The position numbers and the translations under genes are program-made. From Gemmatirosa kalamazoonensis (GTDB lineage Bacteria > Gemmatimonadota > Gemmatimonadetes > Gemmatimonadales > Gemmatimonadaceae): a stretch of DNA of 64,000 nucleotides. Position 1 is the first letter of the stretch. Each line of letters begins with the position of its first letter. Location of the stretch: positions 186,001 through 250,000 of the forward strand of contig NZ_CP007129.1 in assembly GCF_000522985.1 (NCBI RefSeq), written 5' to 3'. Below the pieces are notes generated by a model that saw only the letters and a list, made by a program, of their open reading frames with translations, ran no database searches and had not been told where the DNA came from. Shown in pieces: positions 57,490 to 63,841 of this stretch.

Positions 57490-57564
57490 TTGGACAGGAT
57501 GAACAGGACGGACAGGATGAGAACCCACAACAAGGCAGTTTTGTCTGGTTCTCATCCTGTCCGT
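57490..57564. repeat. 18-bp perfect inverted repeat with tandem units (family H)
   Basis: ACGGACAGGATGAGAACC (57508-57525) pairs perfectly with 57547-57564 across 21 bases. The left arm also has a second GGACAGGATGA unit just upstream, without a full partner. The element follows the panE stop and may terminate it; its loop is A-rich and the T run TTTTGTC lies in the loop rather than after the stem. Confidence 0.85.
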
Positions 57565-57600: not shown

Positions 57601-57630
57601 TTGCACGACGTGGCCCCCCGGTCCTAAGAT
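57601..57630 (+). promoter_or_regulatory. sigma70-like promoter of the ilv operon
   Basis: TTGCAC (57601-57606) and TAAGAT (57625-57630) are separated by 18 bases, matching a sigma70-type -35/-10 pair. Transcription would start around 57636-57638, at or next to the GTG of the leader peptide, so that mRNA could be leaderless. Confidence 0.55.
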
Positions 57631-57636
57631 GGCGGC

Positions 57637-57732
57637 GTGACGCTCGCCGCCCTCGCCCTCATTACGCTCGTCGTACTCTCCGTAACGCTCGTTGCGGAGC
57701 TTATCGGCATGCGAGAGGGCGAACCGGCGTAG
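57637..57732 (+). CDS. branched-chain amino-acid leader peptide (attenuator)
   Basis: A 31-codon reading frame from GTG to TAG. Thirteen of its residues after the start are Leu, Val or Ile (seven Leu, four Val, two Ile), including two runs rich in [10 protein letters not shown] and VTLVAELI. It stands about 130 bases before ilvD and is followed by two hairpins, the second a terminator. This is the layout of ilv attenuators in other bacteria: ribosome stalling at BCAA codons would favour the first hairpin. No Shine-Dalgarno sequence is seen, which fits a leaderless start. Confidence 0.72.
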
Positions 57733-57744
57733 CACACCGACGAC

Positions 57745-57775
57745 CGCGTCCCCTCTCGAGACGGGAGGGGACGCG
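57745..57775 (+). promoter_or_regulatory. candidate upstream hairpin of the ilv attenuator
   Basis: CGCGTCCCCTC pairs perfectly with GAGGGGACGCG around a loop with CTCGAGA. It starts 13 bases after the leader-peptide stop. In an attenuation model it is the pause or alternative structure. The pyrimidine-rich side could also compete with the terminator stem, but the exact antiterminator pairing cannot be set by eye. Confidence 0.55.
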
Positions 57776-57791
57776 AGCTTCTCGAACGAAG

Positions 57792-57830
57792 CCGCGGCCC
57801 GTCCCTCTCCGGACGGGCCGCGGTCGCTTT
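57792..57830 (+). terminator. intrinsic terminator of the ilv leader
   Basis: A perfect 13-bp stem, CCGCGGCCCGTCC (57792-57804) with its complement at 57811-57823 and a six-base loop, is followed by TCGCTTTCTCC. It lies 34 bases before the ilvD start codon, so transcription would end here unless readthrough is allowed. Confidence 0.78.
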
Positions 57831-57863
57831 CTCCCCCCATTTCGGAGAGGCGACGAGAAGCGA

Positions 57864-59593
57864 ATGCGATCGGACACGATCAAGCGCGGGCTCCAGCGGG
57901 CGCCGCACCGCAGCCTGCTGCGCGCCACCGGCCAGATCCGCGACGCCGCGGACTGGGACAAGCCGTTCGTCGCCGTCTGCAACTCGTACGTCGACATCGT
58001 CCCCGGCCACGTCCACCTGCAGGCGTTCGGCAAGGTGGTGAAGGACGCCGTGCGCGCCGCCGGCGGCGTGCCGTTCGAGTTCAACACGATCGGCGTCGAC
58101 GACGGGATCGTCATGGGCCACGACGGCATGCACTACTCGCTCCCGTCGCGCGAGCTCATCGCCGACGCCGTGGAGACGATGGTGCGCGCCCACTGCTTCG
58201 ACGCGCTCGTCTGCATCCCGAACTGCGACAAGATCGTGCCCGGGATGCTCATGGGTGCCGCCCGCGCGAACGTGCCCACCGTCTTCGTCTCCGGCGGGCC
58301 GATGGCCGCGGGACGCGACGCGGCGGGACAGAAGATCGACCTCATCACCGTGTTCGAGGGCGTCGGCGCGCGCGCCGCGGGACGCATCGACGACGCGCGC
58401 CTCTCGGACCTCGAGCGCAACGCGTGCCCGACGTGCGGCTCGTGCAGCGGCATGTTCACCGCGAACTCGATGAACTGTCTCTGCGAGGCGATCGGCATCG
58501 CGCTGCCGGGCAACGGGTCGATCCTCGCGACGTCGCCCGAGCGGCACGACCTCGCGCGCCAGGCCGCGCGCCGGCTCATGGCGCTCGTGCGGGACGGCGT
58601 GCGCTTCCGCGACATCGTGACCCGCGAGTCTATCGACAACGCGGTCGCGCTCGACGTCGCGATGGGCGGCTCGACGAACACGGTGCTCCACGTGCTCGCG
58701 CTCGCGCGCGAGGCCGAGGTGGACTACCCGCTCGCGCGCTTCAACGAGGTGGCCGAGCGCACGCCGCACCTCGCGAAGGTCTCGCCGGCGTGGGACGGCG
58801 ACCGGCAGTGGCACATGCAGGACGTCGGCGAGGCGGGCGGCATCCCGGCGATCCTCGCCGAGCTCGCGAAGCTCCCCGGCGCGCTGCACCTCGACGCGCC
58901 GACGGTGATGGGCACGTCGCTCGGCGCCACGCTCCAGGGCGTGACGAACGCGAACCCCGCGTGCATCCGGCCGGCGAACGACCCGCACTCGCCGCGCGGC
59001 GCGCTCGCGGTGCTCCACGGCTCGCTCGCGCCGTTAGGCGCGGTGATCAAGGTCGGCGCGGTCGACCAGCACGAGATGCGGTTCCGCGGTCCGGCGCGCG
59101 TGTTCGACGGCGAGGAGGCGGCCACGGAAGCGGCGCTCAGCGGCGGCATCGTGCCGGGCGACGTCGTGATCGTGCGCAACGAGGGGCCGCGCGGCGGACC
59201 GGGGATGCGCGAGATGCTTTCCCTCACGAGCCTCCTCAAGGGCGCGCCGCTCGGCGACAAGGTGGCGCTCGTGACCGACGGGCGCTTCTCCGGCGGCACG
59301 CGCGGGCTGTGCATCGGCCACGTGTCGCCCGAGGCGGCGGAGGGCGGCCCGATCGGGCTGCTGCGCGACGGCGACATGATCGACATCGACCTCGCCGAGC
59401 GGCGCATGGACGTGGAGCTCGACGCCGAGACGCTCGAGGCGCGCGCCGCCGACTGGGCGCCGCCGGCGCCGCGCTTCACGCGCGGATGGCTCGCCCGCTA
59501 CGCGGCCATGGTGACGAGCGCGCACACCGGTGCCGTGCTCGAGGTGCCTAACGCCAGGCCGACCGCCGCGCCGGCGCTCGCGGGGACCGTCGC

Positions 59594-59597
<4 letters not shown>
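57864..59597 (+). CDS. ilvD: dihydroxy-acid dehydratase
   Basis: A 577-residue iron-sulfur dehydratase that converts 2,3-dihydroxy-isovalerate and -methylvalerate to the 2-keto acids. The cluster ligands are in [21 protein letters not shown] and [30 protein letters not shown] and the C-terminal [20 protein letters not shown] are family hallmarks. I chose the ATG at 57864 ([18 protein letters not shown]), the usual start after GGAGAGG; the frame is open upstream through the leader. First structural gene of the ilv operon. Confidence 0.95.
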
Positions 59598-61377
<1,780 letters not shown>

Positions 61378-61381
<4 letters not shown>

Positions 61382-61779
61382 GCGCGGAAATGAGCGCCGC
61401 GCCGCGTCACACCGTCGTCGTGCGGCTCCACGACCGCCCGGGCGCGCTGTACCGCGCCATCGGCCTCATTCGTCGCCGCGGCTACAACGTCGCGAGCCTC
61501 GTCGTCGGCGCGAGCGAGCGGCCGGGGACGAGCCGCATGGTGCTCGTCGTCGAGGCGAGCGACGTCCGCCAGGTCGTGCAGCAGCTCGCGCGGCTCGTCG
61601 ACGTGCTGTCCGTGCAGGAGATCGACGCCGAGCCGGCGCACGTCGACGCGCTCGTCGAGACGATGCTCGCGTTCGATGCGGGACTCGGGACTCGGGACTC
61701 GGGACTCGAGTTCCGGAAACCAGTCCCGAGTCCCGAGTCCCGAGTCCCGACTTCCACTCTTCAGGAGACCGCCCGATGA
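61378..61779 (+). CDS. ilvN: acetolactate synthase small subunit, short, with palindrome-derived tail
   Basis: A 133-residue regulatory subunit. An ACT domain fills residues 10-85 ([48 protein letters not shown]), the valine-binding and feedback module. After [15 protein letters not shown] the usual second domain of IlvH-type subunits is missing. Residues 101-125 are encoded instead by a family D inverted repeat. The result resembles short IlvN proteins in size. The start overlaps the ilvB stop and the stop overlaps ilvC. A second ATG at codon 5 is also possible. Confidence 0.9.
61680..61750. repeat. inverted-array element at the ilvN 3' end (family D)
   Basis: Four GGGACTC units (61680-61708) face about four GAGTCCC units (61723-61750) across a short spacer containing TTCCGGAAA. 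It is entirely inside the ilvN reading frame and ends 29 bases before its stop. The unit is that of the repeat in ilvB, 1 kb away. Confidence 0.93.
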
Positions 61780-62867
61780 CGACGCTCTACTACGACGCCG
61801 ACGCCGACCTCACCCGACTCGCCGGCCGCCGGTTCGCCGTCATCGGCTACGGCAGTCAGGGGCACGCCCACGCGCTGAACCTGCGCGATTCCGGCCTCGA
61901 CGTGCGCGTCGGTCTCCCCGAGGGCTCGCGGTCGCGGCCCAACGCGGAGCGCGAGGGGCTGCGCGTGCTGACGCCGTTCGACGCCGCGGCGGAGGCCGAC
62001 TTCATCGTGCTGCTCACGCCCGACCACACGCAGCGCGCCGTGTACGAGGAGGCGATCGCGCCGAATCTCACCGCCGGCAAGACGCTGCTGTTCGCGCATG
62101 GCTTCAACGTGCGCTTCGGCGAGATCGCGCCCGACGGCGACGTCGATGTCATCCTCGTCGCGCCGAAGGCGCCGGGGCACCGCGTGCGCGAGCTGTTCGC
62201 CGAGGGGGCCGGCGTGCCGTCGCTCGTCGCCGTGCACCGCGACCGCTCCGGCGGCGCGCTCGCCGACGCGCTCGCGTACGCGAAGGGGATCGGCTCGACG
62301 CGCGCCGGCGTGCTGCAGACGACGTTCGCCGAGGAGACGGAGACGGACCTGTTCGGTGAGCAGGCGGTGCTGTGCGGCGGCGTGTCGGCGCTCGTGAAGG
62401 CGGGCTTCGAGACGCTCGTGGCGAACGGCTACCAGCCGGAGGTCGCGTACTTCGAGTGCCTGCACGAGCTGAAGCTGATCGTGGACCTCATGTACCGCGG
62501 CGGCTTGAACTACATGCGCCACTCGGTGTCCGACACCGCGGAGTACGGCGACTACGCCGCGGGCGACCGCATCGTCACGAACGCGACGCGCGCCACGATG
62601 CAGGCGCTGCTCGACGAGGTGAAGGACGGCAGCTTCGCGCGCCGCTGGATCGCGGAGAACCGCGACGGCCGCCCGACGTTCGAGGCGCGGCGCGATGCGG
62701 AGTCGCACCACGCGATCGAGGAGGTCGGCCGGCGCATGCGCCGCATGATGCCGTTCCTCGACGCGAAGGAGGTGCTGCCCGGCCAGCGCGGCGCCGCGCC
62801 GGCGCAGACGCCTAACGATTTCGCCCTGGCCGAGCCCGAGGCGGCGCTCGCCGGAGCGGGACGATGA
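61776..62867 (+). CDS. ilvC: ketol-acid reductoisomerase
   Basis: A 363-residue class I KARI, which isomerises and reduces acetolactate or acetohydroxybutyrate with NADPH and Mg2+. [21 protein letters not shown] is the nucleotide-binding motif. The C-terminal knotted domain has the metal ligands in [20 protein letters not shown] and [21 protein letters not shown]. The tail after about residue 330 is longer than usual and low in complexity. It overlaps ilvN and ilvE by four bases each. Confidence 0.95.
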
Positions 62868-63841
62868 GCGCCGCGAACCCCGCGACGGTGTCGCTCGCCA
62901 CGACCCCGGAGCTGATCTGGTTCAACGGGCGCCTCGTGCCGTGGGAGAAGGCCACGGTGCACGTGATGACCCACGCGCTGCACTACGGGTCGTCGGTGTT
63001 CGAGGGGATGCGCAGCTACGACACGGCGCGCGGCCCCGCGCTGTTCCGCGCCCGCGAGCACGTGCGACGCCTGCGCGACTCGGCCCGCGTCTACCGCATG
63101 GACCTGCCGTACGACGACGCGGCGCTCGTCGACGCGTGCCGCGCGGCGGTGCGCGAGAACGGGCTCACGAACGCGTACCTGCGCCCGCTCGCGTGGCGCG
63201 GCGCGGGCGCGCTGTCGGTGAGCCCCGTGCGCCACCCGGTGGAGGTGATGGTCGCCGCGCTCCCGTGGAACGTGCCGGCCGGCGACGAGTCGCTCGCGCC
63301 CGGCGCCGACGTGTGCGTCTCGTCGTGGACCCGCGCCGCGCCGAACACCATTCCCACGGGGGTGAAGGCGGGCGGCAACTACCTCTCGGGACAGCTCGTC
63401 GCGATGGAGGCCGAGCGGCTCGGCTACGCCGAAGGGATCACGCTCGACACGTCGGGCACGGTGAGCGAGGGGTCGGCGGAGAACGTGTTCCTCGTGCGCG
63501 ACGGCGTCATCGTGACGCCGCCCGCCGCGTCGTCGATCCTGGCGGGGATCACGCGCGACACCGTGCTCACGCTCGCGCGCGAGCTGGGGCTGACGGTGCG
63601 CGAGGAGCGCGTGCCCCGCGAGGCGCTCTACGCGGCCGACGAGATCTTCTTCACCGGCACCGCGGCCGAGGTGACGCCGGTGCGCTCCGTGGACGGCGTG
63701 GTGCTCGGCGATGGCGCGCGCGGGCCGGTCACGACGCTGCTGCAGCGCGCGTTCTTCGCCACCGTGCGCGGCGAGACCGAGGACCGGCGCGGGTGGCTCA
63801 CGTACGTGGCGGACGAGCTGGCGACGGAGGCGGCGGCATGA
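62864..63841 (+). CDS. ilvE: branched-chain amino-acid aminotransferase
   Basis: A 325-residue fold-type IV PLP transaminase doing the last step of Val, Leu and Ile synthesis. It reads [30 protein letters not shown] at the start, the PLP Lys region [35 protein letters not shown], and [16 protein letters not shown]. It closely follows the E. coli IlvE pattern. The start overlaps the ilvC stop, and its own stop overlaps the next frame. Confidence 0.95.

Follow-up and report, generated by a model that had tools for sequence, protein, structure and literature searches.

A predicted six-segment attenuator preceding the ilvDBNCE operon of Gemmatirosa kalamazoonensis and leader peptides of the same type in relatives

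The ilvDBNCE operon in the window (the whole stretch of 64,000 nucleotides that was analysed) is very likely controlled by a ribosome-mediated transcription attenuator composed of six segments, A to F, in which the pairings A:B, C:D and E:F would represent the off state and B:C and D:E the on state. A preliminary description had already read this region as a leader-peptide attenuator, and that reading is now supported by a bias of the leader towards rare codons, by complementarity that holds across genera and by folding that depends on the position of the ribosome. Segment A and the pairings B:C and D:E were not part of the preliminary description and were found here.

In the proposed mechanism, the polymerase would make the leader and a ribosome would begin at its 5′-terminal GTG. 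A shortage of Leu-, Ile- or Val-tRNA would stall the ribosome at the branched-chain amino acid (BCAA) codons 5′ of segment B; B:C would form, D would be free to capture E, and the polymerase would read into ilvD. When BCAAs are plentiful, the ribosome would cover B up to the stop codon, C:D and then E:F would form, and transcription would stop. Without translation of the leader, A:B would form and the operon would again be off.

The ilv leader, its operon and its counterparts in relatives

The promoter, GTG frame, two hairpins and ilvD that had been described for positions 57601-57863 were all recovered there, on the forward strand. The −35-like hexamer TTGCAC (57601..57606) is followed after an 18-nt spacer by the −10-like hexamer TAAGAT (57625..57630), which ends 6 nt before the leader GTG, a geometry pointing to a leaderless transcript. 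The leader frame (57637..57732) begins with GTG at 57637, comprises 31 codons and ends with TAG at 57730-57732. Among its 30 internal codons, 13 specify Leu, Ile or Val (seven Leu, four Val and two Ile), so that a frame rich in codons for the operon's own products lies 5′ of the biosynthetic genes. Of the 293 frames in the whole window that start with ATG or GTG and have 25-40 codons, the leader frame ranked first in Leu/Ile/Val content (43%), and it was the only one that combined at least 43% Leu/Ile/Val with at least five CTT, ATT, GTA or GTT codons. Hairpin 1 (57745-57775, forward strand; −27.8 kcal/mol) and the terminator-type hairpin 2 (57791-57824, forward strand; −32.8 kcal/mol) follow the frame. 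The stem of hairpin 2 is strong and conserved; its U-tract, UCGCUUUCU, is poor in the window, and clear T-runs are found in relatives. The hexamers of the ilv promoter are imperfect, and a scan with generic consensus patterns called neither the ilv promoter nor the terminator in the window. Between panE and the ilv promoter lies a perfect 16-bp inverted repeat, GGACAGGATGAGAACC (57510-57562), probably either the terminator of panE or a repeat element; genome G169 carries an inverted repeat, GGAATCGGATGAGACGG, that resembles it.

Searches against NCBIfam and Pfam bore out the gene order given earlier, with all five genes on the forward strand: ilvD, encoding dihydroxy-acid dehydratase (ATG at 57864; 57864..59597; TIGR00110, 752 bits, above the cut-off); ilvB, the large subunit of acetolactate synthase (59594..61381; TIGR00118); ilvN, the small subunit (61378..61779; PF22629 ACT_AHAS_ss); ilvC, ketol-acid reductoisomerase (61776..62867; TIGR00465); and ilvE, branched-chain aminotransferase (62864..63841; TIGR01122). 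Facing 7-bp tandem repeats, CTCGGGA / CCCGAGT, were observed inside ilvB (60608-60690) and at the end of ilvN (61679-61750); they translate as GLGTRDS..., an insertion-like low-complexity stretch within biosynthetic enzymes. All 48 tRNA genes of the genome are on contig C2 and the ilv genes and leuA are on the 1.1-Mb contig C3, which may be a secondary replicon.

An ilvD of the window's type was present in 27 of 179 Gemmatimonadaceae genomes and an IlvB match in 30 of the 179, and the BCAA pathway therefore looks patchily distributed in this family. In 26 of the 27 ilvD genomes the upstream DNA is present and could be assessed, and 23 of these carry a BCAA-rich frame of 21-40 codons together with hairpins 5′ of ilvD; the other three (G026, G104 and G169) are without a BCAA-rich leader upstream of ilvD. 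A genome of another family (G037, locus L018) also has a BCAA-rich leader before ilvD. In four genomes (G338, G349, G323 and G015) the leader stands before ilvB instead, G015 being the only case among the 30 loci of family f2 that were examined for a leader directly upstream of ilvB. The preliminary description had named conserved BCAA codons in orthologous leaders as a point to check. This check, run on the 23 genomes of the same family and the one of another family, showed that the control codons are conserved across relatives, and the attenuation reading was left standing.

In genome G001 (locus L021), which is more distant within the phylum, ilvD is preceded by a 57-codon frame with LIILGVLIIILPLV and by a 9-bp complement, GGGGAACGG:CCGTTCCCC, with no clear terminator, and control of ilvD there is possibly translational rather than transcriptional. 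BCAA-rich frames 5′ of ilvD were also seen at L273, L280, L289, L291, L332 and L345, several of them with a terminator-like hairpin; the titles of these records name Anaerolineae, Caldithrix, Ignavibacteriae, an unclassified bacterium, Desulfobacteraceae and Desulfatitalea. This suggests that ilvD attenuation may be in wide use beyond Gemmatimonadota.

With one leader taken per genus, Leu, Ile and Val account for 44.8% of leader codons compared to 22.8% of ilvD codons. Within each amino acid the choice of codon also differs: over all ilv leaders, CTT makes up 42% of Leu codons (5% in ilvD), ATT 57% of Ile codons (14%) and GTA 23% of Val codons (3%), and CTG and GTG are avoided. The odds ratios of leader to ilvD, with one leader per genus, were 15 for CTT, 11 for ATT and 13 for GTA (Fisher p = 8e-20, 5e-10 and 2e-6, respectively). 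In genus g12, pairs of leaders differ by 2-5 synonymous compared to 0-2 nonsynonymous codon changes, and the 60 nt 5′ of the leader are only 27-50% identical in ungapped comparison. The window's genome has one gene each for tRNA-Leu GAG, CAG, TAG, CAA and TAA, of which tRNA-Leu GAG would be the chief reader of CTT and CTC. Attenuators typically favour the control codon that is most sensitive to limitation (PMC1183508).

Alternative pairings and the position of the ribosome

The six segments, all on the forward strand, were located as follows. Segment A (CGCCCTCGCCCTC, 57648..57660) spans leader codons 4-8 and can pair with segment B (CGAGAGGG, 57712..57719), which lies within the last leader codons, at −17.2 kcal/mol. 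B is also complementary to segment C (GCGTCCCCTCTCG, 57746..57758), the 5′ arm of hairpin 1, so that A (57648-57660) and this arm complement the same stretch at the leader end, 57712-57719. Segment D (CGGGAGGGGACGCG, 57762..57775), the 3′ arm of hairpin 1, is complementary to segment E (CCGCGGCCCGTCC, 57792..57804), the 5′ arm of the terminator, and D:E is the predicted antiterminator. Segment F (GGACGGGCCGCGG, 57811..57834) is the 3′ arm of the terminator together with the weak U-tract TCGCTTTCTCC.

Alignment of the ilv leaders with MAFFT did not bring the helices into register, and the arms were therefore compared by a cross-genus permutation, in which true partners were set against partners swapped between genera, with one leader for each of 12 genera. 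The results showed that true partners pair better for B:C (p = 0.00015), C:D (p = 5e-5) and E:F (p = 5e-5). D:E was weaker, with p = 0.05 in one representative set, 0.003 in another and 0.09 when two related genera were removed. The negative control B:E gave p = 0.27; a second control, C:F, also scored (p = 0.001), as expected if C and E have a pattern in common by way of D. When the window alone was compared with shuffled sequences, neither B:C (p = 0.052) nor D:E (p = 0.062) was significant, and the support for the switch is thus comparative. At locus L034 only one hairpin is present and the end of the leader is able to pair with the terminator arm itself, an arrangement predicted to keep the same switch logic.

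The RNA 3′ of a placed ribosome was then folded codon by codon, with the transcript end set before the 3′ arm of the terminator. In the window, with the A site at codons 3-22, the predicted pairing was 0.65-0.75 for B:C, about 0.1 for C:D and about 0.6 for D:E. From codon 26 on, B:C fell to 0.00-0.01, C:D was mostly 0.5-0.67 and D:E mostly 0.22-0.33 (0.49 with the A site at codon 31); with the ribosome at the start codon, B:C was 0 and C:D was 0.68. The predicted pairing turns as the ribosome passes CTT ATC GGC ATG (57700..57711, forward strand), which holds the last Leu-Ile control codons: between the A site at CTT (codon 22) and at codon 26, B:C changed from 0.75 to 0.01 and C:D from 0.09 to 0.63. 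Across 16 genera, the difference between stalled and finished ribosomes exceeded that of codon-shuffled leaders (Wilcoxon p = 0.001), as did the difference between stalled and untranslated states (p = 0.003). In the window taken by itself, the difference in sequestration of the terminator arm was not significant (p = 0.12). Prediction and comparison together point to a mutually exclusive antiterminator that depends on the position of the ribosome. At equilibrium, the terminator was preferred in most states, and the switch must therefore be kinetic. A kinetic decision is also assumed for known attenuators.

These pairings and the codon choice bear on other explanations of the region. The leader could be an ordinary gene for a small membrane protein with a hydrophobic helix and its own terminator, unrelated to the control of ilvD, and its 31 residues are indeed strongly hydrophobic and are followed by a terminator-like hairpin. 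However, frames of this kind occur directly before ilvD, ilvB or leuA in many genera with differing peptide sequences, they use the BCAA codons that are rare in ilvD, their last codons complement and covary with hairpin 1, and no Pfam or NCBIfam family matches the leader peptide, all of which makes such a gene very improbable. Control that dispenses with a leader peptide, by a metabolite riboswitch or T-box before ilvD (for instance a sensor of ppGpp or tRNA), is more improbable still: ppGpp-sensing riboswitches regulate some bacterial ilv genes (PMC10272879), but no relevant Rfam match at E ≤ 1 was obtained for this region of the window or for 15 related loci, where two microRNA matches, both spurious, were the only ones, and what is conserved is a frame containing BCAA codons. 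Covariance models of the Rfam ilv/leu leader families and riboswitches likewise gave no match in the window region and these 15 loci. Both the plain membrane protein and the ppGpp riboswitch or T-box were rejected on the codon bias and the covariation of partners.

Translation of the leader might instead act mainly through access of Rho rather than through intrinsic termination, as the weak U-tract UCGCUUUCU and the failure of the scan to call the terminator would allow. This is unlikely, since relatives (for example L010 and L040) have the same hairpin as the window with better T-runs and the E:F stem is among the best-supported pairings.

Leaderless starts, leuA leaders and a small-protein family

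For the promoters and LEADERLESSNESS, the distance from the −10 to the start codon was compared between leader types. The −10 ends 6-9 nt before the start codon in the window leader and in L005, L010, L012 and L034, whereas in several further ilvD leaders the two are 33-48 nt apart. A short distance was found in 9 of 26 ilv-type leaders, compared to 1.2 in shuffles; in the leuA-type (leucine) leaders, the −10 ends 6-10 nt before the start in all nine, compared to 0.3 in shuffles. The earlier proposal of a leaderless leader peptide is thus likely for the window, with its 6-nt geometry, but does not extend to a fixed trait of ilv leaders, many relatives being at 33-48 nt. The leuA leaders are very likely leaderless. 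In Corynebacterium glutamicum, the ilvBNC leader starts one nucleotide from the transcript start (PMC11857589).

Upstream of leuA in the same genome (G000:C3:255497-256987, minus strand) are MQRHAVLLLTSALGRLIGRGLSCLGGRSE, a promoter of leaderless type and a terminator, and the 5′ arm of this terminator is complementary to CTTGGGAGGA in the leader; the window's genome thus contains a second predicted attenuator, of leaderless type and with a predicted response to Leu, before leuA. Eight leuA-type leaders align, with CTCCTCCTTA and TGGGAG invariant, and a covariance model of these leaders matched strongly in additional genera of the family and in another family (G015), and less strongly upstream of leuA in a third family (G191). 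Shuffle and permutation tests of leader-terminator pairing were uninformative for the leuA leaders because this segment hardly varies, and only ribosome-position folding separates them.

Not every leucine-type leader is followed by leuA. Those without leuA have behind them a small frame of 37-76 codons with the ending QADGx(P/A)-TGA, and in most leuA-linked loci the same frame separates the leader from leuA. The window's genome has an attenuator leader with a QADGxP-TGA frame outside the window (G000:C3:257011-257395, minus strand), and further loci are L132, L245, L157, L158, L159, L160, L263, L154, L249, L251-L255, L257 and L258. The encoded protein, which matches no Pfam or NCBIfam family, often carries MFxF at its N-terminus and DATG internally. 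At the third positions of its codons there is free variation (CAG/CAA, GCN, GAC/GAT, GGN), indicating that the protein is conserved and not the RNA. Over the 179 family genomes the QADG pattern had 34 matches, some of which fall in unrelated frames, compared to seven for the reversed pattern. In one genus, eight genomes have an ilv-type leader with two hairpins before the QADG frame, and seven of these eight forms carry or resemble MFxxFDR...DATGTPF...QADGAP. At 16 loci, no LeuA, IlvB, IlvC or IlvE motif was found within 0.9-1.7 kb downstream of the QADG frame; upstream of the frame, a five-residue ilvD motif was matched in four cases, probably by chance. G169 has the 3′ portion of an ilvD on the opposite strand downstream of the QADG frame. 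We tentatively consider that the BCAA attenuators of Gemmatimonadaceae may form a regulon with targets beyond biosynthesis, in which the QADG protein or the attenuator RNA might be a product of BCAA starvation that acts away from the biosynthetic operons.

Relation to known attenuators and significance

The his attenuator of Salmonella and E. coli has six segments A-F, of which A:B, C:D and E:F form the off state and B:C and D:E the on state. The predicted switch of the window follows the same segment logic, although the his attenuator senses His and its sequence is unrelated. The ilv and leu leaders of E. coli and Salmonella are preceded by a 5′-UTR and are not leaderless. The attenuators of ilvGMEDA, ilvBN and leu in these bacteria are also unrelated to the window's in sequence but resemble it in BCAA control codons, alternative hairpins and the choice of sensitive codons (PMC1183508, in part).

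The attenuator of C. glutamicum ilvBNC (ilvB-II motif) is similar in having a BCAA-rich uORF at most 1 nt from the transcript start as well as terminator, antiterminator and anti-antiterminator hairpins (PMC11857589, PMC10272879). It differs in the genes controlled (ilvBNC compared to ilvDBNCE) and in its three overlapping hairpins, whereas the window's has C:D/E:F plus B:C/D:E and no Rfam match. Mycobacterium tuberculosis ilvB1NC shares a uORF with LVVI control codons and a terminator/antiterminator switch, for which readthrough was proposed to rise when BCAAs are scarce (PMC13236596), but has a single terminator/antiterminator pair, another gene order and belongs to another phylum. Like the window's predicted leader, rnTrpL/peTrpL of Sinorhizobium meliloti is a leaderless leader peptide whose attenuator RNA starts with AUG (PMC7298713). 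It senses tryptophan, and it sets an example of attenuator products that have roles in their own right, as the leaders free of BCAA genes might.

In the library of papers searched, no report combined Gemmatimonadota, leader peptide and attenuation, and those that name Gemmatimonadota together with a leader peptide deal, judging by title and abstract, with other subjects than attenuators. The classical mechanism is already known in kind and is apparently undescribed in this phylum, to which the present findings would extend control by leader peptides; the predicted switch is spelled out in six segments, and the leaders are probably leaderless. The window and leuA leaders are suited to asking whether, with leaderless initiation, the ribosome stays near enough to the polymerase for attenuation to work. 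Novelty could lie in the leaders free of BCAA genes and in the QADG protein, an unannotated small-protein family under predicted BCAA attenuation that includes genomes where no leuA was detected. For this soil bacterium, the ilv leader very probably restricts expression of the BCAA genes to times when those amino acids are scarce.
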